A stretch of DNA of 62,215 bases, taken from a virus. Numbering within the stretch: position 1 is the first letter of the stretch; each line of letters opens with the position of its first letter. The stretch spans positions 1-62,215 of the IMG/VR virus record IMGVR_UViG_3300037042_003397. The stretch is one strand, 5' to 3'. The notes below the pieces were generated by a model. It made no database searches, had not been told where the DNA came from, and saw only the letters and a list, made by a program, of their open reading frames with translations. Shown in pieces: positions 4,852 to 57,277 of this stretch. The translations under genes and the position numbers were made by a program.

Positions 4852-4925
4852 TGTACATCTCCCAAAATTTAGAATAAATCACGGGCGGCCAAACCCCGGT
4901 GGGGCTGGGTCCGCATCGAATTTCG

Positions 4926-4954
4926 ATTTTATCTATAATTTATTCATTGACCAA
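4926..4954 (-). promoter_or_regulatory. Promoter for the leftward accessory operon
   Basis: On the minus strand, TTGGTC and TAAAAT are separated by 17 nt and lie about 75 nt upstream of the ATG at 4851. The -10 matches 5 of 6 consensus bases; the -35 is weaker. The leader downstream contains a CCCC-ACC-GGGG hairpin near 4895-4906. Assignment is by sequence similarity only. Confidence 0.45.
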
Positions 4955-5160
4955 ATTCTACCGTACAAGATGTGTATGTCATATGTGACGAATGTCAAAT
5001 TATAGTCATTTTTGTGGCTGTTTTGTAACCGGTTCCCCTATTACATTTTCATAAATCTATGCGAAATTGTCATGCCCAGTTTATGACTTTCGTCGCATGA
5101 ACGTTCAGTAAGTTGTGAAAGTTGACAATTTAGGTAAAAAATATCTAAAATTGGAGCAGG

Positions 5161-5218
5161 GTGGTTTCGGCATTATCTCAGGATCGGCCCTCATTTTTGA
5201 CAAAATATTATGACCATA
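5161..5218. repeat. 58-bp direct repeat, copy 1
   Basis: It begins GTGGTTTCGGCAT and ends TATGACCATA. Copy 2 (5243-5300) has the same length without gaps and matches at about 46 of 58 positions by eye, with both ends perfectly conserved. It could be a protein-binding iteron pair of the origin. Confidence 0.75.
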
Positions 5219-5242
5219 ACTTGAAAATCAGCATCCATTGTG

Positions 5243-5300
5243 GTGGTTTCGGCATCCACTCACGATTGCACCTCATTTCTTGAAAAATAATATGACCATA
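5243..5300. repeat. 58-bp direct repeat, copy 2
   Basis: Second copy of the 58-bp repeat, 24 nt after the first ends. The conserved ends GTGGTTTCGGCAT and TATGACCATA flank a more variable centre, as expected if the ends are the recognised parts. Confidence 0.75.
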
Positions 5301-5494
5301 TTCATCCATATTCCTATACAGACATTCTCTCATCCCATTCTCACAAACCCTATCAAAAGCTATCAAATTGAAAATTAGCGCAGAGAGTCAGTGAGGAGCG
5401 AAGCGACGAACTGACAACGGAGAAAATTCAAAAAAAATAAGTCGATTCTGTTAATTAATAATATAAGTATAGAACAAAGTACAACCATGAATAA

Positions 5495-5503
5495 TTATTC
5501 ACA
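5495..5503 (+). promoter_or_regulatory. DnaA box
   Basis: TTATTCACA matches the consensus TTATNCACA. It lies in the first of two CCATGAATAATTATTC repeats (5486 and 5513 regions); the second copy diverges after TTATTC. A single perfect box could occur by chance, but its position inside the repeat-rich region favours a real site. Confidence 0.5.
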
Positions 5504-5566
5504 GCCGATTGACCATGAATAATTATTCTTGCCTATTGACTTTTGAAAAAAAAATGGTTACACTTA

Positions 5567-5582
5567 GGGAGGGTGGGTGGGG
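5567..5582 (+). other. G-quadruplex motif
   Basis: GGGAGGGTGGGTGGGG consists of four G-runs of at least three with single-base loops, the loop pattern known to give very stable parallel quadruplexes. A further GGG follows at 5586. It sits between the DnaA-box repeats and the (AT)n tract, where strand opening would be expected. It is visible directly; folding in vivo is inferred. Confidence 0.7.
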
Positions 5583-5635
5583 AAAGGGAAAATAGAAATT
5601 TAATTAATATATATATATATATTAATATAACTTGT

Positions 5636-5690
5636 TGTAATTTTTGTAATTTTTGTAATTTTACTACATGCATGTAATTTTACTACATGA
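5636..5690 (+). repeat. TGTAATTTT iterons
   Basis: Three contiguous 9-mers TGTAATTTT begin at 5636, 5645 and 5654. The third is extended by ACTACATG, and the whole 19-bp unit is repeated once from 5673. They directly follow an (AT)n tract, resembling iteron arrays of phage or plasmid origins. Confidence 0.65.
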
Positions 5691-5735
5691 CACCTCTTAC
5701 CCTGCCTGGTATGAGTGTGGCATGGTCACAATACA

Positions 5736-5815
5736 ATACTCGGCAAGCGTACTCTACCATACCACATACCATACTCGGCAGATGGAACCTGCTACCTCAC
5801 AAGACATACTCGGCA
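5736..5815 (+). repeat. Cluster of three ATACTCGGCA motifs
   Basis: Exact copies lie at 5736-5745, 5771-5780 and 5806-5815, evenly spaced by 35 nt start to start. Six further exact copies occur elsewhere: 13654, 19638, 28050, 50204 on the plus strand, and 50046, 55643 as the complement. The 35-nt phasing suggests a protein-binding array. Confidence 0.65.
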
Positions 5816-5888
5816 GGGTGAACTGCACATAGCACATACCGGGCAAGGTATACTCACTGAGTAAGGACAGTAGGAACACGCTTCGCTT

Positions 5889-5941
5889 CGCTCCGCTACT
5901 ATATACTCGTCGCTCCGCTCCTCGTATATAGTAGCGGAGCG
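5889..5941. other. 18-bp perfect hairpin
   Basis: Arms 5889-5906 and 5924-5941 (CGCTCCGCTACTATATAC and its complement) surround a 17-nt CT-rich loop. No T-tract follows on either strand, so it is not a classic terminator. It may be a cruciform or priming structure of the origin region. Confidence 0.6.
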
Positions 5942-6088
5942 TACCTAAACATTTTTTGAATTTTCGATTTGAAATTGAAATTTTCCAATTTGCTGCTTAA
6001 ACTTGGAAACCGTGGAGTCGCCGAAGGCGTTCCTCGCTGCCTATACCGGATAGTATAGAAACTGATAGGCTATGCGCATATGCTACTG

Positions 6089-7583: not shown

Positions 7584-8106
7584 ATTTAGGATTGCTGGAC
7601 TTAGTTATGATGATATATTCAAAGAACTAAATAAAGATAAGAGTTTGTTTCTTCCTGATAACTATTCTGTTAGTGCAGTAGTTATTGATGTTCGCAGGTC
7701 TATAGAAAGTATAAGAAGTAAAGCAGCGGATTATGCTGTTGAAATCTTAGAGATTGATCTGCTTAGAATGGAAAATTTGCTGATGGTATATTATAACAAG
7801 GCTCTTGCCGGTGATGCTGCTGCCGCAAATTTGACATTGAGAATTATGGAGCGCAGATCAAAGGTGCTTGGTCTTGATACACCGAGAAGGGTGGATGTAC
7901 ATGATTGGAGATCTGAAGTAATTGAACTTTACAAGAGTGGAAAGCTGACCAGGGATCAGATCGAGAAGGAGTTAGGTAATGAGCTTGCTGGAAAATTATT
8001 TGAGTCTGGAAGCGTTGAATTCTCTGAAGATGGAAAGGCTGAAAGCGGAAGGAACGAAGACAACATCATCGAGGGGAAATTGGCCGGACAAACACCTTCA
8101 CGATGA
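7495..8106 (+). CDS. terS: Terminase small subunit-like protein, 203 aa
   Basis: It lies directly before the large terminase and has the expected size. The N-terminal part (VLEFRIAGLSYDDIFKELN) resembles the helix-turn-helix that recognises pac or cos sites. A central helical segment at about residues 70-125 would form the oligomer core, and the tail is acidic. AGGGAG before the ATG supports the start at 7495. It would recognise phage DNA and pass it to the packaging ATPase. Assignment rests on position and architecture more than on a diagnostic motif. Confidence 0.65.
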   Translation: MAMATDKRVQRDLSWGLDSKSELRRSRVLEFRIAGLSYDDIFKELNKDKSLFLPDNYSVSAVVIDVRRSIESIRSKAADYAVEILEIDLLRMENLLMVYYNKALAGDAAAANLTLRIMERRSKVLGLDTPRRVDVHDWRSEVIELYKSGKLTRDQIEKELGNELAGKLFESGSVEFSEDGKAESGRNEDNIIEGKLAGQTPSR

Positions 8107-10945
8107 TGTTGGAAAACCAATTCCTTTCCATAAAGCTCAGGAGTTAACTTGGGATAGTACCAGAAGAACTGTGGCTATGATAGCTGGCTCGCAGGGCGGT
8201 AAGGGGATAACTTTGGTAGAATTAGTCCCAATTGAGGATAGTTATACCACAATTGGAGAAATAAAGGTAGGTGACAGGGTATTTGGATCTGATGGGAAGT
8301 TGTGCAATGTAACCTATGTTTCACCTGTACATCATTTGAGATGTTTTGAGGTAGAGATTGATAATGGGCAGAAGATTATTGTCGATGAAGAGCATCTATG
8401 GAAGGTGAAAAGTTATAAGCATAGAAAGAATGAAAATAGGTCGGTCAAAGATCCGGACTTAGAATTTACAGAGTCGAGGTGGCAATGCAGATTGAGAGGT
8501 GTTGGTTATGAAGTCCTTGATACTTTGTATATGTCTAAGCACGTTATCGATGCTCATGGTGGATCAAATTATTCAATAGACCTGTGCGAAGCTTTGGAAA
8601 TAGAAGATAAAGTTCTTCCCATTATGCCTTATACATTTGGGGCATGGCTTGGAAATGGCGTATCTGACAATTGTTATATTTCCTGTTGGGAGCCTAACAA
8701 TGAAGTTATCAGAAGAATAAATATTGATGGGTATCCGACTGAAAGGTTTGAATCGTCAGAAGATAATAAGTGCTGGACTTATGCAATTGGAGGAAAAGAG
8801 GGAGGAAGGAGAATTGTAAATCCAATATTGAAGTCTATGGATGTACTGCATAATAAGCATATTCCAATGATTTACAAGAGATCGTCAATAGAACAAAGAC
8901 TTCAATTGGTAAGAGGTATGCTGGATACTGATGGATACATTGATCCGAGAGGACATATTGAGTACTGCTCAATAAGAGAAAAACTGGCAAATGATTTTCT
9001 TGAAGTTGTAAGATCGCTTGGCATTAAGGCAAAAATAAGAACAAAGATAATCCAGGTAAAAAGTGAGGACTACAATGTTTATCTGGTTACTTTCAATAGC
9101 AATAAGTATAGATTTTTCTGGTTAGATAGGAAATATGAAAGACAAAGCAATAAGCAAAAACCTAACACAAATTTACTTTACATTGTGTCGATAAAAGAGG
9201 TAGAGAGTGTTCCGACAAAATGTATCGCAGTTGATAGCTACGATCATACGTTCTTGGGATCAGGAGCTTTTATAACTTTACACAATACGTCTTTTGGTCC
9301 TTGGTGGCTACAAAAAGAGATCTATGATATAAGAGGATCAGGAGATTATATCGCTGCAACCGCTTCCTTTGACTTATTCAAGTTGAAAATGCTGCCAGCG
9401 ATGCTTCAAGTGTACGAACAAATACTTGGCATTGGAAGGTATTGGGCAGGAGATAGGATCATTGAACTCAAAGATCCAAAGACTGGTGAGTTTCTTGCAA
9501 AACGTTCTCAAGATCCAATGTGGGCAAGAATTATTCTTAGATCGGCAGATGCGTTGGGTGGTCTGGAAAGTTCTACCGCTAAAGGAGCCTGGTTAGACGA
9601 GTGCTTATCGCCGGAAACAATCATAAGTACAGAATTGGGAGAGATGCAGATAGGTAGGATCGTCAATCACTCCACTGATGTTCGTGTTTGGTCTTACGAC
9701 ACTAAACTGCACAAGTTTGAATTGCGCAGAATAAATCGTTGGATAAAACTACCTCAGAGTAAACCACTACTTCAACTTGGTTCTCTACGTATTACAGCAG
9801 ATCATAAGGTGTGGACAGAAAATGGCTACATAGAGAGTGAAAAAGTACTGGCATCTTTTGAACATAAGTTGTTCAAAATGAGTAAAGTATACGGTAGTTT
9901 CATGTGTGGGGAGTGGATTGATGTACCAAAAACGTTAAACCCTTCAGAATGTGATTTATCTAGTGACGGATTTGTTTATAACATCGAAGTTGAAGGGAAT
10001 CACAATTACGTCGCTGGCGGAATACTTGTATCCAATTGCGGGCAGGAGCGATTTGGCTTTGATGCATTTAAAGCTATACGCAGAAGGATAGCTTTGCATG
10101 TGGGTCGTATCCTGATGACAACTACTTTATATAATCTCGGATGGTTGATTGATGCAATTATTGAGCCGGCTATTTCATCTGGACAGCAGGAATTCTTTTC
10201 AGATGGAATTGGAGAGATTGAATATACAGACTGCGAAAGTAGAAAAACGGCAGTAATTCAGTTTGATAGTATTCTTAATCCATCTTTTCCGGTAGAGGAA
10301 TACGAGGAACAAAGGAAATTACTTTCTGATGAAGAATTCAACATGCAATATCGGGGGAGAAAAGCATCAAGAAGAATTTTGATTTATAGCAGCTTTAGTC
10401 CCACTCTTCACAAGTGCGATCCATTCGAGATACCAGATCATTGGAAAAGATACCTTGGACTTGATTTTGGCCCAGTTCATACTTGCTGTATGTACTATGC
10501 TGAAGATCCAATTTCGCACATTCTATACTGCTATCGGGAATATCTGGCAGGAGGAAGGACGATTGCGGATCACGTGAAACATATTCTGGCCGGGGAAAGG
10601 GGTGTTCCATTGTGCGTAGGTGGGGCAGGATCTGAGGGACAGTGGCGCATGGAGTTCGGATCGGCCGGATTGCCAGTTTATAAGCCGCAGATCATTGATG
10701 TGAACTTGGGTATCAACCGTGTATACGCGCAGCATCAGAATAATGGTATTATGTACTTTGGTAATGTGTCAGGTATTATTGACGAAAAAGGGAAATATCG
10801 CAGAAAGATGAGCCAAGCTGGTGAGACTTTGGATGAAATTGCTCAAAAGAATATCTATCACCGCTTGGATGCAGAAAGATATATCATCTCCTGGATAAGA
10901 CCAGGATATATCAGGAAAGCTAAGGTACTTCAGCTAGGAGACTAA
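7979..10945 (+). CDS. terL: Large terminase with two inteins, 988 aa precursor
   Basis: This is the packaging ATPase/nuclease motor. After removal of residues 76-436 and 542-686 the exteins give 482 aa, normal for the family. The first intein splits the P-loop between GSQGGK and TSFGP. The second splits the Walker B region between GAWLDE and CGQERF. The C-terminal extein has an RNase H-type nuclease start (RYLGLDFG). AAGGAG lies 7 nt before the ATG at 7979, so a long overlap with the small terminase gene is accepted. Without splicing, neither ATPase motif is intact. Confidence 0.9.
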   Translation: MSLLENYLSLEALNSLKMERLKAEGTKTTSSRGNWPDKHLHDDVGKPIPFHKAQELTWDSTRRTVAMIAGSQGGKGITLVELVPIEDSYTTIGEIKVGDRVFGSDGKLCNVTYVSPVHHLRCFEVEIDNGQKIIVDEEHLWKVKSYKHRKNENRSVKDPDLEFTESRWQCRLRGVGYEVLDTLYMSKHVIDAHGGSNYSIDLCEALEIEDKVLPIMPYTFGAWLGNGVSDNCYISCWEPNNEVIRRINIDGYPTERFESSEDNKCWTYAIGGKEGGRRIVNPILKSMDVLHNKHIPMIYKRSSIEQRLQLVRGMLDTDGYIDPRGHIEYCSIREKLANDFLEVVRSLGIKAKIRTKIIQVKSEDYNVYLVTFNSNKYRFFWLDRKYERQSNKQKPNTNLLYIVSIKEVESVPTKCIAVDSYDHTFLGSGAFITLHNTSFGPWWLQKEIYDIRGSGDYIAATASFDLFKLKMLPAMLQVYEQILGIGRYWAGDRIIELKDPKTGEFLAKRSQDPMWARIILRSADALGGLESSTAKGAWLDECLSPETIISTELGEMQIGRIVNHSTDVRVWSYDTKLHKFELRRINRWIKLPQSKPLLQLGSLRITADHKVWTENGYIESEKVLASFEHKLFKMSKVYGSFMCGEWIDVPKTLNPSECDLSSDGFVYNIEVEGNHNYVAGGILVSNCGQERFGFDAFKAIRRRIALHVGRILMTTTLYNLGWLIDAIIEPAISSGQQEFFSDGIGEIEYTDCESRKTAVIQFDSILNPSFPVEEYEEQRKLLSDEEFNMQYRGRKASRRILIYSSFSPTLHKCDPFEIPDHWKRYLGLDFGPVHTCCMYYAEDPISHILYCYREYLAGGRTIADHVKHILAGERGVPLCVGGAGSEGQWRMEFGSAGLPVYKPQIIDVNLGINRVYAQHQNNGIMYFGNVSGIIDEKGKYRRKMSQAGETLDEIAQKNIYHRLDAERYIISWIRPGYIRKAKVLQLGD
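8204..9286 (+). other. Intein 1 in the terminase P-loop, 361 aa, class 3-like, with LAGLIDADG domain
   Basis: Insert from Gly76 to Asn436, ending LHN before Thr+1. The N-terminal residue is Gly, not Cys/Ser. The block-B region has DEEHLW and block F has KCIAVDS, which supply the Trp and Cys of the class 3 WCT signature, in which an internal Cys replaces Cys1. The Thr of that triad is one position off (ITLHN). A homing-endonuclease domain lies between, with motifs FGAWLGNG and RGMLDTDG. The first has Asn where catalytic Asp is usual, so nuclease activity may be lost. Confidence 0.85.
9602..10036 (+). other. Intein 2 at the terminase Walker B site, 145-aa mini-intein
   Basis: Begins CLSPETIIS, with block B ITADHKVW, block F VYNIEVEGNHNYV, and ends LVSN before Cys+1. 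There is no endonuclease domain, so it is a mini-intein splicing by the ordinary class 1 route. The usual penultimate His is Ser. Such inteins can still splice but often more slowly. Insertion directly after the catalytic Glu region (WLDE) leaves the ATPase inactive until splicing. Confidence 0.85.
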
Positions 10946-10946
10946 G

Positions 10947-12626
10947 ATGCCGGATTCGATTGATACATCATTAGACAACACTATACAACAGTCGATAAAG
11001 ACTGGCGGTGGTTCCGGTGTTGGCATTTTATCATTACTGCTTTCAATGGGCGCTGCCGATGGTCTTATCTCAAAGTGGTGGTCTCCTACCCGAGATCAGC
11101 AGTTAGATGATTTCTGGAAGTCGTCTGATCATCTTTCCGGAGCCGTGTATAGTATGGTATCCAAGATGACGACCATTCCGGTAAAGGCAATTCCGAGAGA
11201 TACGTCGATCAAGTCTCATGTTCAGATAGCAGAGCAATACACGGATAATTTGATTAATGCTTCTCAGTTCGGAGAAGGTTGGATGACGTTCTTTAGTAAG
11301 TGCGTAACCGACTTATTGACCAGGGATAACGGTGTTTTTGTTGAAGTGATTGGCCCAGGTGATAAGTTAGGTCCAATAACAGGACCTGCTTTCTCGATGG
11401 CGCATCTGGATAGCGCAAGGTGCTTTAGAACAGGTAATCCAGAATACCCGGTAGTATTTACTGATGTGGATGGTAGAAGTTATAAGCTGCACAACTCAAG
11501 AGTGATCTATATGGCTCAGATGACTTCTCCGAGAAGGGAAATGAACGGGGTCGGCTATTCAGCGATTTCAAGGTGTATCAATGCTGCTCAGAATTTGATT
11601 GACATTTCCGTGTACAAGCAGGAGAAGATGGGGTCAAGACCGCAGCGGCAGATATTTATCACTCGTGGTGGGCTTGATCCAGAAGATCTAAAAGAAGCAA
11701 TTCGAGTATCAGATAGTACTCTTAGTTCTCAAGGATTGACACGGTTTGCTAAGTCTATCGCAGTGGGTGATAGAACCATTCCGGACGCAGACATGAAGCA
11801 GATTGATATTGCTTCTGTTCCGGATGGATTTGACGAGAAGGAAAGTACCATTTTGGGAATGTCTGTAATTGCGCTGGCCTTTGGCACCGATGCCAGAGAT
11901 TTATTTCCTGGTATGGAGAGTGGCGCAACCAAAGCAGATGCGATTATCCAGCATATCAAACAAAGAGGAAAGGGCGCTGGTCAGATTTTGCAATCATTTG
12001 AGAATGCGATCAGTCAGAAATTCTTACCACAGTTTTTGAAGTGCGTGTTTGACAATCAGGACGACAGTGAGGATCGTCAGGCGGCAGAGATTTCCAATAT
12101 CCGGGCGCAGGCCAGAGAAAGGGATGTTGCCAATAAGATCACCAATATTCGGGTTGAGCGAGAGTTGATGTTGAAACGGGGCGAGATCAGTGAAGCTCAA
12201 TTTGAGGAACTTGAATTGAATGATGGTCGGCTTGAAGATGGGGTTGAAGTTGAAGTTCTATTTGAGTCGAATGATAAGGATTACGTTGAATTTTTGGGTG
12301 ATGTCGATGAAAATAACTACGAAGAAAGAAAGACGAAGATCATGGGGTACGTGGTTAATTCAAAGGACGTGAATCGGATAAAGAAGGCAAGGAGGGCGAT
12401 TGCGGCAATAAACCATAGATATGACACTGAAGACATATTAGGGGCTGAGATTGACAAAAACAAGCTTTCAGCGATCAACCAGGCAGATGTGTCTAATGTT
12501 GATAATCCTGTAAAAGTAGCAAAACCGGATACGTCCTATCAGGATGAGAAATTTGGTAGGAAATTACCGAGACAACTGGTAAATGCAGTTGACGAAGTGA
12601 GTGTGGCTCAGTCGGAAGGAGTTTAG
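10947..12626 (+). CDS. Portal protein, 559 aa
   Basis: Dodecameric ring at the capsid vertex through which DNA enters. Length, position after the terminase and sequence regions such as GVGYSAISRCINAAQNLIDI and VIALAFGTDARDLFPGMES match HK97/SPP1-type portals. The C-terminal third is charged and ends in a low-complexity tail. AGGAGACTAAG precedes the start, 1 nt after the terminase stop. Confidence 0.85.
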   Translation: MPDSIDTSLDNTIQQSIKTGGGSGVGILSLLLSMGAADGLISKWWSPTRDQQLDDFWKSSDHLSGAVYSMVSKMTTIPVKAIPRDTSIKSHVQIAEQYTDNLINASQFGEGWMTFFSKCVTDLLTRDNGVFVEVIGPGDKLGPITGPAFSMAHLDSARCFRTGNPEYPVVFTDVDGRSYKLHNSRVIYMAQMTSPRREMNGVGYSAISRCINAAQNLIDISVYKQEKMGSRPQRQIFITRGGLDPEDLKEAIRVSDSTLSSQGLTRFAKSIAVGDRTIPDADMKQIDIASVPDGFDEKESTILGMSVIALAFGTDARDLFPGMESGATKADAIIQHIKQRGKGAGQILQSFENAISQKFLPQFLKCVFDNQDDSEDRQAAEISNIRAQARERDVANKITNIRVERELMLKRGEISEAQFEELELNDGRLEDGVEVEVLFESNDKDYVEFLGDVDENNYEERKTKIMGYVVNSKDVNRIKKARRAIAAINHRYDTEDILGAEIDKNKLSAINQADVSNVDNPVKVAKPDTSYQDEKFGRKLPRQLVNAVDEVSVAQSEGV

Positions 12627-48816: not shown

Positions 48817-50961
48817 TTACATATCAACCTTGATCTCTCGCATCGTGAACAGGAAGTCAAATCCGGCAACGTTCATAGTTGCCCCTTCTCTTTGCGTCAA
48901 ATCAGGGAACCACTTCTTTCCAAGAAGAATAGCAAACTTTGTTCGATTTAGCGTGTTGCGAACATTCTTCAGTATAGACTTTCTGTTTTCAATCGCAGCC
49001 TCCAACCATAGAACAGCCAGCTTCTTTTCGGAAGTACTATCGGAAACGGAAATACTTTTGACTTCCGATGGTAGTTCTCCCATCGCTGCCCAGATCATCA
49101 TTTCCGATTCGGTCATTTTCTTTCCACTTGAATTTTTCAGCAACACAGCATTGATACTCGGTAACGATGAGAACTTCTGCATCTTCACATCAAATTCTCT
49201 CGCTATGTAGAAGTCCGTGATCGGGTAATCTTCCTTTGGAGGATTGTACCCATTCTTTGTTACTCCCTGAGTATCAAGATAAGTTACCTGATCGTTGCTC
49301 AATGCGACCGTTTCAAGTTTATCATCTGGATCAATTTCATTCTTTTTCCATTTCATAACCTTGAGCAATGCTTCTGAGTACTTCTCAGTAGATAGCAACG
49401 AGCAGTAATCCAATGCTTTCACTTCATCGAATTTACGGTTCATCACTGGAATTCGTTTCAGGTTAATCACGTATATTTCATCTGCATTCCAGTCACCCTT
49501 AACGATCTTTTCTTTCTTCAATGTATTGAATGACGCTTCCGATAACTTGACTGGCAATGATGTTACGTTCAGGTTGCCATCAAGAACGATAGTGTAATTC
49601 CTGAAAATCCAGGTCGGGTACACTTTCGCAAATCCAAACTTTTCACAGTCATAATTCAATTCAATCATACCATCTATCTTTACCAGGATACTGATATTGA
49701 GCCTGGTTGCATTCCATGTCAGATCGGATAACCTGCAAGCTGGATTAGTTTCCTTACGCTTGAATTCAGAATAACCATCATGCTGTCTGGTGCGAACACC
49801 TGTTCGCTTGTACTTGAATTCAGGATGATAAGGATAAAAGAACGTGTCCTTATCGTCCCGCAGCATTTCAAGTAAATCCAACATGCAGAACCGATCAACA
49901 CGAGGAACGTACCCCAACCGCCTTCCATCGGTGTATCTCTTATCCTCATGGAACGTTGCATCCAGCAGTTCTTTCTCTACCAACCCATATTCATCGTTGG
50001 TGAACGCATTGTAAAGTCGATCAACCAGAGCAACATCGCCGATCTTGCCGAGTATGGATAGTGCAATATCGCTGTGCATCTTCTGAGAGAAGATCATCGC
50101 ACTTGCGTACAGTCCAGGAAGAATTTCCTGAACATTGATCTTGTCCATGTCCATTGGCGGAGAACTTGTGATGAAGTAAATCTCGTCCGCTTCATCGATC
50201 ATCATACTCGGCATTTCAACGGAGTATTGAGTAATAACACCATCTTTCAGAGTGAAAGCAACATCCATGTTCTTATCAATCAAGAAGCTGATCGGGACAA
50301 CAAACACCTTTCTCGGTGATGCTTTGGCTCCGATAAAGTCTTTCATCGATGAACTGAATTCTTCAAGTTCAGACGAATGAATAAGTTGTCCTCCAATTCT
50401 GGCTGACATATCTGACATCAACTCTTTGTTGTAATAACTTCCATAACCAACAAAGATTGCCTTGCTGATAGTGCCCTTGATGTTATCAATCGCTTCCTTG
50501 ATGTTACGAATTTCTTTGGTGTAATCGCTAACCACCGGGTATCCATCTGTGAAGAACATCAGTCCAAAATTGCTGCACAGCGGATAAATCTCATCAACAA
50601 CTTCCCTGGTATCGTATAGGATTTCACTGAAGCAGGTTGTCCCGATTGGAGATTTATTACTGGCGATGATCCTTTTGAATGTTTCTACATCATCATGCGA
50701 TTGCTTTACGAACCCTTTCAAGATGAACCGGAATTTTCCTTCACCGGAGAACCACCCCAATGACATGATATCGCCAATGTCGATGCTCTTGTAATGTTCA
50801 ACCAGATCAGCAGCTAATCCGTCCAACATATAACTCATTGACCCGGATCGGTCATAAATCCAGATGTGATTGACTTTTTGCTTTGACTGCTTTACCTCTG
50901 GCTGCTTTGGTATCGCTACTCTTGTCAAAAAGTGATTACTATCCAACTTGATTGTGTCCAT
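48817..50961 (-). CDS. von Willebrand factor A-domain protein, 714 aa
   Basis: Residues ~30-200 form a VWA domain with a complete MIDAS: DRSGSMS, then GTTC supplying Thr, and FTDGYP supplying Asp, so it should bind Mg2+ or Mn2+. The remaining ~500 residues are beta-rich in the middle (ISILVKIDGMIELNYD) and helical at the end, with no recognised domain. It lacks a signal peptide. A promoter lies upstream at 51013-51040. Large phage VWA proteins are known but of unclear function. Confidence 0.75.
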   Translation of the reverse strand: MDTIKLDSNHFLTRVAIPKQPEVKQSKQKVNHIWIYDRSGSMSYMLDGLAADLVEHYKSIDIGDIMSLGWFSGEGKFRFILKGFVKQSHDDVETFKRIIASNKSPIGTTCFSEILYDTREVVDEIYPLCSNFGLMFFTDGYPVVSDYTKEIRNIKEAIDNIKGTISKAIFVGYGSYYNKELMSDMSARIGGQLIHSSELEEFSSSMKDFIGAKASPRKVFVVPISFLIDKNMDVAFTLKDGVITQYSVEMPSMMIDEADEIYFITSSPPMDMDKINVQEILPGLYASAMIFSQKMHSDIALSILGKIGDVALVDRLYNAFTNDEYGLVEKELLDATFHEDKRYTDGRRLGYVPRVDRFCMLDLLEMLRDDKDTFFYPYHPEFKYKRTGVRTRQHDGYSEFKRKETNPACRLSDLTWNATRLNISILVKIDGMIELNYDCEKFGFAKVYPTWIFRNYTIVLDGNLNVTSLPVKLSEASFNTLKKEKIVKGDWNADEIYVINLKRIPVMNRKFDEVKALDYCSLLSTEKYSEALLKVMKWKKNEIDPDDKLETVALSNDQVTYLDTQGVTKNGYNPPKEDYPITDFYIAREFDVKMQKFSSLPSINAVLLKNSSGKKMTESEMMIWAAMGELPSEVKSISVSDSTSEKKLAVLWLEAAIENRKSILKNVRNTLNRTKFAILLGKKWFPDLTQREGATMNVAGFDFLFTMREIKVDM

Positions 50962-51012
50962 GCTGCTCCTTTTCTGTATTTCAAAATTGAAAATTTATTG
51001 TGAATTAATACT

Positions 51013-51040
51013 ATTATACCATATGACCATAATAATGCAA
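51013..51040 (-). promoter_or_regulatory. Promoter for the VWA gene
   Basis: On the minus strand, TTGCAT and TATAAT are separated by 16 nt, about 50 nt upstream of the VWA start. The perfect -10 suggests independent transcription of the gene and a boundary between it and the structured segment upstream. Confidence 0.55.
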
Positions 51041-51077
51041 TAGGCAAAATACTTCAATATTCTTACTCAAGAAATAA

Positions 51078-52158
51078 ATAACGATCTCTGGCATAGCGTT
51101 TTCGGTCTTGCGCTGACCTAAACTTTTGCATTTCCAGAGATCGTTATCCGGCTAACTTATACCGGTCGCCTTCTCCTTGTCCGGCTGGATGACGTTGACA
51201 AGTCAACGTGCCAACTTCTCAGGCGAAGCTTCAACTTAGTTTTCCACCACGTTTCTTATGTATAGATGGCTCGTTTTTCTTTTGATACGTTATTCTATCT
51301 TTTACTAGAATTATCATTTCTAGTGCCAAGTTATTGTTTTTAAGGAGAGCCTGGTGGAGATTTTCACCCACTCCGGATTGTCAGTTCCTTTTACCTGATC
51401 CTCTACGATGCGACACATCGTTACAAGATCATTATCCGAAGCAATCTCATATTCGGTCAGGCTCGTGTTAAATTCCGGTTACGTTTCCGGAGTGTTAGTT
51501 ACAAACACCGACTTATCCATTTTTCCGCAAGGAGTTTACATTCCTTGTCAATGCCAATTAGCGGTTGTGGGAAGGGGGACTCCACCATTTGTTCTATGTC
51601 GCTTCCTTATCGCATTGATGGTCGGAAGAAGCGTCCGAAGATACTACACATCTTTAATGGTCTATGATCGACTACTGGAATAATTGAAAAGTTTCCACAA
51701 AGATGTAATCTTTATTTTCACTTATCGTGTGGGTTGCAGATTTGTCCTCACCTCACCGGTCATATCCGGACAGGCACTCGTCTTCATCACGATTTCACGA
51801 TAAATTTCTGTTTCAATTTGTTTTCACTTCTAAGCTGTAAGCACTATGAAGCGATAACGGTCTCTTTTACAACATGGGAGATACAAAGCACACAACGGCA
51901 TCAACCCTTTGTCTGTTTTACGCTCTCATCTATCGTTGCGTACAAAACATACAGTGTGCTAACCACCTCTCGGTCCTTGACGAAAGAAATGAAAAGGTGG
52001 CTAAGTGAGACTTGCCAGCTTCGATCTGGCTTGCAGTTGTAGCGCAATTTGATTTCTCAATATTGGCAGTTCGACCACAATTCCAGTAGTCTCATGAATG
52101 TAGTTGATTGACACTTTTTTGGCTTTGTCTACCATAATTCTGCATCAATCAACTACAT
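51078..52158 (-). ncRNA. Candidate giant structured non-coding RNA, about 1.1 kb
   Basis: No credible gene lies in 50962-52272, but the segment is dense in perfect inverted repeats. A 14-bp stem is at 51078-51091/51134-51147. ACGTTGAC/GTCAACGT lies at 51192-51209, ACTAGAA/TTCTAGT at 51304-51324, and ACGATG/CATCGT at 51405-51421 nested in TGATC/GATCA. CCGAA/TTCGG follows at 51436-51456, TCCGG/CCGGA at 51474-51491 and CAAGGA/TCCTTG at 51528-51547. ACATCTTT/AAAGATGT spans 51648-51706, AGCACAC/GTGTGCT 51887-51960 and GCCAG/CTGGC 52014-52030. A 14-bp stem (52098-52111/52145-52158) ends it. Minus strand is favoured by flanking genes, A-rich loops and one U-G pair (51962/52001). It resembles ornate phage RNAs such as GOLLD or ROOL in scale; family membership is not shown. 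Confidence 0.55.
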
Positions 52159-52241
52159 GGTAATTATTACATAAAGAGAACACAATTACTAGTGCCAAAA
52201 TACTGTATTTTCTTATTACATTTATTACAATTTGCTATTTT

Positions 52242-52273
52242 AAATTGTACTTTTATGCCAATAAGTACAATTT
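52242..52273 (-). terminator. 11-bp hairpin directly after the clamp gene
   Basis: AAATTGTACTT / AAGTACAATTT with a 10-nt loop, overlapping the clamp stop codon by one base. It is AT-rich and not followed by a good U-tract, so it may be a processing or stabilising hairpin rather than an efficient terminator. Confidence 0.4.
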
Positions 52274-53370
52274 CACAGCGACTTTGGCATCAATATCGAA
52301 GTCCAGCTTGAGTTATCTTTTCCCTTGAACTGGATCGGACTTCTTGGTGTGTTGATACTGGCTATCGTCATATCGCCAAAAGGTTTTGCCATGCCTAGTA
52401 TCATTTGAAGTCTTATCGGATCAAGAATAATGGTATCGCAATCTTCACTAACAACAGCTTTGCAATCCTCGTATGTTGATCCCTCATCTCCTTCTGCCAT
52501 AATCAAGATATTCCCGTTTTCTTTGGACATATCAATCTTGACGACATCTTCATTGAAAATCCTTGATCTCTTTATGACATTTGAGACAGTTTTGTTGTCA
52601 AATTCAATAAAAGATGCGAACCTTTTCGGGATAATTGAGTCTGCATTCGGATATTTCTCCATAATTAACAATGACATTAACTCAATACCAGGTGCGGTAA
52701 TAGAGATAGCTGATCTGCTCAACTTCACACTCAATTCAGATTTTTTGATACTGGCAATAGATGACATGAACTTGCCCGGTATGACATAGGATATTGGCTC
52801 ATCGAAATTACTGATCTTATCCACCGTAATCCCGATCCTGCTCAACATATATCCATCTGTACACGTGAGTGTAAAATCTTTATCACTGATTGTTTTTAGT
52901 TCAACACCCGTTTGCTCAACTTTTATGTTGAAGTTCTTTGATATAGAACCGATGATCGATGCGATTGCCCTGTTTAACTCGTCTGAATTTATCGTAAACT
53001 CAATTCCATCTTCTACCGGAGAAGCGACAGGATACTCGTAAGATGGAAACGACGTTATCGTCACCTTACTCTTATCCTGGAATTTCAAAGTGACAACACC
53101 CTTATTCTCGTAAATATCAATCATTCCAGTGTTCTGAGAAATGCAACTCAGCAGTCTTTCTTCTGGAACACAAATATCAAGACTGTCTATAGTCGAGATA
53201 ACATCTGTGGTAACAATGGCTCTTTGCTCAAGATTTGTTCCTTCAACAGACAACATAGCGCCATCGAACTTGATGCGAACACACTCCAGAATTGGAAGTG
53301 TACTTTTTCGAGGAACATAATTCCTGACAATGCGAACTGCACTTTTTAATATCTCCAACTGTATTATCAT
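52273..53370 (-). CDS. dnaN: DNA polymerase sliding clamp (beta subunit), 365 aa
   Basis: Full-length clamp with three beta-clamp domains. It begins MIIQLEILKSAVRIVRNYV, with LPILECVRIKFDGAMLSVEGT in domain 1 and SLLIMEKYPNADSIIP at the domain 2/3 junction. The Y-P-N-A-D-x-I-I-P block matches the family's FPDY...P element, and the C-terminus ends SILMPKSL. It tethers a polymerase to DNA. No DNA polymerase gene is recognised in the window, so it probably serves the host replicase. Confidence 0.85.
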   Translation of the reverse strand: MIIQLEILKSAVRIVRNYVPRKSTLPILECVRIKFDGAMLSVEGTNLEQRAIVTTDVISTIDSLDICVPEERLLSCISQNTGMIDIYENKGVVTLKFQDKSKVTITSFPSYEYPVASPVEDGIEFTINSDELNRAIASIIGSISKNFNIKVEQTGVELKTISDKDFTLTCTDGYMLSRIGITVDKISNFDEPISYVIPGKFMSSIASIKKSELSVKLSRSAISITAPGIELMSLLIMEKYPNADSIIPKRFASFIEFDNKTVSNVIKRSRIFNEDVVKIDMSKENGNILIMAEGDEGSTYEDCKAVVSEDCDTIILDPIRLQMILGMAKPFGDMTIASINTPRSPIQFKGKDNSSWTSILMPKSL

Positions 53371-57061: not shown

Positions 57062-57206
57062 CTTTACTTCCTCCAAATGGGTTCAACACGAGTATGCGCT
57101 TTCCGCACTTCGGGCAAAATATCATCTGATTGTCGGTAATGCTGCCATTCTCGAACCACAACGAAAGGTCGCAGGCTGATTTCCAGTACTCGCCTTCAGG
57201 TTTGTG
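57054..57206 (-). pseudogene. Zinc-ribbon gene fragment adjoining the tRNA
   Basis: An open frame of 50 codons reads from the tRNA 3' edge to a TGA at 57054: GEYWKSACDLSLWFENGSIT and CPKCGKRI. The sequence is coding-like, with half of a zinc site, but has no start codon in a sensible place. Its expected N-terminus would fall inside the tRNA. I read it as the 3' remnant of a gene cut by acquisition of the tRNA. Confidence 0.5.
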
Positions 57207-57277
57207 CCTCTGTCGAGAATCGAACTCGAATTATCCATTTAGAGGACGGAAGGTTTATCCATTTATCCTACAGAAGC
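57205..57277 (-). tRNA. tRNA-Arg (anticodon UCU), with C at position 33
   Basis: The 73-nt cloverleaf has a 7-bp acceptor (GCTTCTG/CAGAGGC, one T-G) and a D arm with GGAT/AACC. The anticodon stem is TCCGT/ATGGA around loop CCTCTAA, and the T stem TCGAG/CTCGA surrounds TTCGATT. CCA is not encoded. The anticodon is TCT, reading AGA, a codon used very often in this AT-rich phage. Position 33, normally U, is C, and the D stem has one mismatch, so decoding efficiency is uncertain. Confidence 0.8.

Follow-up and report, generated by a model that had tools for sequence, protein, structure and literature searches.

A candidate large structured non-coding RNA between the sliding clamp and VWA genes of a phage genome, without a match among known RNA families

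The window analysed here is the whole virus record, 62,215 bases in length, in which a gap of 1,311 bp (50962-52272) separates two minus-strand genes: a DNA polymerase III beta clamp on the upstream side (52273-53370, 365 aa), identified through PHROG and Pfam matches, and a VWA-domain protein on the downstream side (48817-50961, 714 aa), which matches PHROG 2426, a family of unknown function present in 493 phage records, and which is called VWA after annotated relatives and on account of its predicted fold. Plus-strand reading in the gap stays free of stops for at most 124 codons, and minus-strand reading for at most 53. There were no PHROG matches at an E-value of 0.1 for the two largest open reading frames (91 and 102 aa, both on the plus strand, antisense to both neighbours), and a Pfam scan of five of the six frames (all but +0), with X at stop codons, returned nothing above the cut-off. 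Given this absence of matches, neither a gene nor a recognisable dead gene was found in 50962-52272, bearing out the view of the earlier note that the 1.3-kb interval holds no credible gene. The minus-strand composition of the interval (A 0.335, T 0.245, G 0.228, C 0.192) has a base skew resembling that of leftward genes, the strand of both neighbours.

Searches for relatives of the interval were made with the DNA itself and with neighbouring and conserved proteins. DNA searches of phage and plasmid records recovered no homologue, phage-record matches of 20-40 nt at an E-value of 4 being dismissed as chance. The 72 loci that were fetched likewise contained none, nor did 18 complete records from relatives of the phage or of its VWA gene, the complete records yielding only short chance matches in a DNA search at an E-value of 10. 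Scans of viral contigs with the VWA protein of the window alone or the clamp alone recovered none, and a scan with a VWA alignment recovered 51 loci (best identity 40%), none with a related interval. Alignments of the major capsid, helicase and Sak4-like proteins recovered only G001, G002 and L073; among genome contigs, the capsid scan returned none and the VWA scan two loci, both without the candidate RNA. A 16-mer from the part of the interval described below as domain II occurred in 41 stretches of viral contigs, none of which extended. The candidate RNA was absent from VWA relatives at 35-40% identity on 14 viral contigs (L009-L013, L015-L019, L037, L038, L045 and L050, with the L014 locus of G001 left out) and on the two genome contigs, and other non-coding gaps near VWA genes in relatives were unlike the interval. 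The candidate RNA is an orphan among the records searched, a set that may lack the entries closest to the window.

Two genomes were the only true relatives of the phage to be found. The nearest, G001 (IMG/VR 3300009506_000016), shares 62% identity in the capsid, 53% in the portal, 46% in the helicase and 37% in the VWA protein, and has no clamp match; G002 is more distant (capsid 57%) and has no VWA gene. The slot directly upstream of the VWA gene in G001 is occupied, on the same strand, by a stretch rich in tRNAs that shows no similarity to the candidate RNA. Within this stretch (L014, 6472-7960) are a tRNA-Thr call interrupted by 385 nt of inserted sequence, a piece that looks like a permuted tRNA, and repeated GGTACG...GTTATCT motifs; there was no group I intron match. 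A separate observation was made in L013, where 11060-11160 holds a possible permuted tRNA (in the order 3' half, CTT, 5' half, with acceptor CTTGGAA/TTCCAAG) and 11275-11415 a tRNA with a D-loop insert of approximately 67 nt. Both loci are bounded by identical motifs, AAAAATGCA ... CTTACAAAC, which hints at an unknown small intron; no further convincing copy was found in viral contigs.

The interval contains perfect inverted repeats of 14, 14 and 12 nt. Two of these form 14-bp stems at 51078-51091/51134-51147 and 52098-52111/52145-52158, exactly where the earlier note had placed a bracketing pair, and the third is a long-range 12-bp pair at 51670-51681/52080-52091. Perfect stems of at least 12 bp numbered 3, against 0.1 expected from shuffles, whereas those of at least 7 bp with loops of up to 60 numbered 7, against 3.0 in shuffles (maximum 9 in one), so that the abundance of short helices is little evidence in itself. 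The claim of at least ten perfect helices is reasonable if stems of 5-7 bp are counted, although stems this short exceed chance only slightly and the excess resides in the long ones. Folded as a minus-strand RNA, 52170-51078 reached -321.8 kcal/mol compared with -268.3 +/- 8.0 in 120 dinucleotide shuffles (z -6.7), with none of the shuffles, the lowest of which was -292.5, reaching the native value. Among 56 equal tiles of the window (1,093 nt, sense strand, 4 shuffles each; mean z -2.0, SD 1.9), 51078-52170 ranked first at z -7.4, and its folding energy below that of shuffles is the property taken here to mark a structured RNA. In unphased tiles of 400 nt the interval was only moderately low (z -2.2, -2.8 and -4.0) and several coding tiles were lower, which together with the strong full-length value indicates that the signal is one of long-range pairing across the whole interval.

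A second intergenic region, 4852-5996, was nearly as strong (z -6.1). This 1.1-kb gap separates divergently oriented genes on the upstream side of the terminase genes, contains direct repeats and both AT-rich and GC-rich palindromes, shows weak similarity (67% over 77 nt) to its counterpart in G001 and looks like a promoter or origin region. The nearby large terminase reading frame (7979-10945, 988 aa) carries two inserts relative to G001, at approximately residues 76-436, with a LAGLIDADG domain, and at 543-672, both probably inteins.

A non-functional or decayed spacer, in which the helices and low energy would be due to chance or to remnants of mobile or hairpin DNA, would accommodate the orphan sequence, the lack of a conserved counterpart in G001 and a short-tile signal that is moderate compared with coding DNA. 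However, this explanation appears unlikely given the number of long helices, the first rank among the tiles and the lack of any decayed-protein trace in the five of six frames scanned. Phage genomes also rarely keep 1.3 kb of idle DNA.

The candidate RNA, proposed from its fold energy, tile rank and lack of coding or Rfam matches and read leftward with approximate ends at 52170 and 51078, is predicted to comprise two end hairpins and two domains. The 5' hairpin (52098-52158) has 14 perfect pairs and a small inner stem, and on the minus strand it grows to 17 bp through two G-U pairs and one G-C pair. Domain I (51664-52095) is closed by a long-range helix of 12+4 bp pairing 52095-52080 with 51681-51664, within which are nested helices at 51818-51811/51689-51682, 51805-51796/51729-51720 and 52003-51992/51971-51960. 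Domain II (51258-51651) is closed by an 8-bp helix, 51651-51644/51265-51258, and contains an inner 8+5-bp pairing (51587-51580/51359-51352 and 51351-51347/51272-51268) besides several hairpins. A linker with small hairpins joins it to the 3' hairpin (51078-51147), which has 14 perfect pairs and a second helix inside its 42-nt loop and is followed by a U-rich tail that is not a classical terminator. Pair probabilities across the end hairpins and the closing helix of domain I spanned 0.96-0.99 (0.98 for the 5' hairpin and 0.99 for the 3' hairpin); the predicted ensemble is diverse (mean base-pair distance 212), leaving the inner helices of both domains uncertain. Values of z for the sub-regions, which are biased because the regions were picked by their helices (the 5' hairpin region after its stem had been seen), were -7.5 on the minus and -4.7 on the plus strand for the 5' hairpin, -3.7 on the minus strand for domain I, falling to -1.8, with most of the signal lost, without the closing helix, -3.7 on the minus and -2.1 on the plus strand for domain II, and -6.4 for the 3' hairpin.

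In each of the six sub-regions tested, as in the whole interval, z was lower for the minus strand, on which both flanking genes lie, than for the plus strand. For the whole interval, the plus-strand fold of 51078-52170 had a z of -4.6 (120 shuffles), and the energy difference between strands was matched by 3 of 120 shuffles. The G-U pairs that extend the 5' hairpin cannot form on the plus strand. These observations bear on the possibility that the inverted repeats work at the DNA level, as cruciforms or binding sites of a cis element next to the clamp gene, for instance an origin of replication or a region bound by protein. Such an element would be in keeping with the adjoining replication gene, with perfect inverted repeats accompanied by a 26-nt direct repeat, and with the direct repeats and palindromes of the other strong-folding gap at 4852-5996. 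It is nevertheless improbable, as the G-U pairs and better minus-strand folding favour RNA, the single direct repeat has two copies and does not form an iteron array, and the sign of the GC skew flips where the genes switch strand, near 6 kb and 44 kb, rather than at 50962-52272.

The direct repeat comprises one copy just upstream of the 5' hairpin (52185-52210, minus strand), which contains TTGGCACTAG, and a second at 81% identity within domain II (51316-51341, minus strand), in which ACTAGAA pairs with a local TTCTAGT. It encloses the CTAGTGCCAA repeat, which was recovered at 51320 and 52189 as previously described. The two exact copies of TTGGCACTAG are both in the interval, with none elsewhere, and this repeat is a possible shared regulator site. 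No clear promoter or terminator for the candidate RNA emerged from a consensus scan of the interval region, in which promoter-like matches were no commoner than in shuffles. TTGGCA at 52198-52193 has no convincing -10 element, in line with the weak -10 described in the earlier note. The promoter that the same note placed at 51013-51040 can be read from the sequence on the minus strand as TTGCAT-16-TATAAT, a promoter-like element for the VWA gene that lies between this gene and the candidate RNA, but was missing from the consensus scan. Elsewhere, the minus strand at 59325-59297 matches the sigma-70 promoter consensus perfectly (TTGACA-17-TATAAT, the -10 being preceded by TG), and this promoter possibly starts a leftward transcript that would cover the clamp, the RNA and the VWA gene. 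Just past the clamp stop codon, 52242-52273 holds an imperfect inverted repeat, AAATTGTACTT...AAGTACAATTT, with no U run (a 33-column self-match at 85% with two gaps).

On a single leftward transcript, the interval could instead act as RNA in cis between the clamp and VWA genes, serving as a long leader, a processing site or an attenuator. Consistent with this, it shares its strand with both genes, ends approximately 120 nt before VWA and has edge hairpins that could be processing sites. The chance of this explanation is nonetheless judged to be small, since a leader of approximately 1.1 kb would be unusually long, the promoter-like TTGCAT-16-TATAAT intervenes between the RNA and VWA, and no riboswitch or leader family in Rfam matches the interval.

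A search of the whole window with all 4,227 families of Rfam 15 gave a single match, a tRNA at 57205-57277. With permissive filters and E-values up to 10, the 1.4-kb stretch 50900-52300 gave six weak matches far below gathering scores, with no GOLLD, ROOL, OLE, HEARO, group I or group II intron, RNase P or tmRNA among them; ARAGORN likewise found no tmRNA in the window and placed its only tRNA at 57204-57277. Membership of GOLLD, ROOL, OLE or HEARO, for which the earlier note had suggested an Infernal search, thus found no support from the Rfam 15 models. There was also no match in the window up to an E-value of 5 for the bacterial Y RNA (YrlA, RF02553). YrlA matches in relatives were rejected as unspecific, as the identical search was positive in most control genomes. 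The VWA protein was considered as a Ro60-like RNA partner and rejected, its AlphaFold model (pLDDT 87.5) resembling general VWA and Sec23/24- or ArnB-like folds, and no Ro60 was present among the 50 structural matches listed for it, which leaves a complex of VWA with the RNA as speculation.

GOLLD and ROOL, RNAs of phages and prophages that are often encoded near tRNA islands, have no known function but assemble into RNA-only cages, as demonstrated in 2025, and many GOLLD members exceed 800 nt (PMC12286853). Like GOLLD, the candidate RNA is phage-encoded, hundreds of nucleotides long and predicted to form multibranched domains, and encodes no protein; unlike GOLLD, it has no covariance-model match, reaches approximately 1.1 kb and has no recognised conserved 3' region. 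The proximity to phage tRNA islands that is frequent for GOLLD, without being strictly defining, is not seen here, the only tRNA of the window being 5 kb away. Like ROOL, which forms an RNA-only nanocage (PMC12286853), it is predicted to be a densely structured phage RNA. Unlike ROOL, it lacks a covariance-model match and is not beside tRNAs. OLE and HEARO are also large ornate bacterial RNA classes, and differ in that their models do not match the candidate. The candidate is approximately twice the length of ROOL, and OLE and HEARO RNAs occupy other genomic contexts. That the interval is a divergent GOLLD or ROOL member beyond recognition by the Rfam models, as the similar size class, multibranched architecture, phage host and tRNA locus in the equivalent slot of G001 might suggest, is very improbable given the lack of any match under the permissive search and of an adjacent tRNA, the nearest being at 57204.

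Of the giant non-coding RNA proposed by the earlier note, what stands is a non-coding interval with a significantly over-stable, top-ranking fold biased to the minus strand, but no known family is matched. On balance, it is probable that the interval encodes one large trans-acting non-coding RNA of approximately 1.1 kb, and we infer that this is a stable, separate unit with the ends given above and a scaffold or particle role. The best reading of the candidate is an RNA of a new orphan class, built like GOLLD and ROOL but a member of neither. In favour of a large RNA, the slot upstream of VWA in G001 is likewise an RNA locus, of tRNA genes, on the same strand; against it are the unexceptional 400-nt tiles, the z of 4852-5996, the absence of the sequence from G001 and the lack of a clear promoter or terminator and of a homologue. 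Transcription of the RNA would run leftward, either as part of that of the replication gene cluster or from a weak start close to 52198, and the product would fold into two multibranched domains (approximately 430 and 390 nt), each shut by a long-range helix, with stable 5' and 3' hairpins that may protect its ends. Such end hairpins, together with two domains closed by long-range pairing, point to a stable RNA that works as a folded body. A scaffold or particle role appears likeliest, as no catalytic family matched, no tRNA-like part was found and there is no evident target; the RNA would then act during infection as a stable scaffold or self-assembling particle in the manner of GOLLD and ROOL, rather than as a coding sequence or simple leader.

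More tentatively, the candidate RNA could be the first of a new class of giant, ornate RNAs from phages, at approximately 1.1 kb larger than the typical GOLLD and forming a self-assembling or scaffolding particle in infection, which is possible but doubtful. If this were true, a giant RNA of separate origin from a different phage lineage would mean that recruitment of large RNAs by phages has happened on more than one occasion, and would offer an independent system for asking what giant phage RNAs do.
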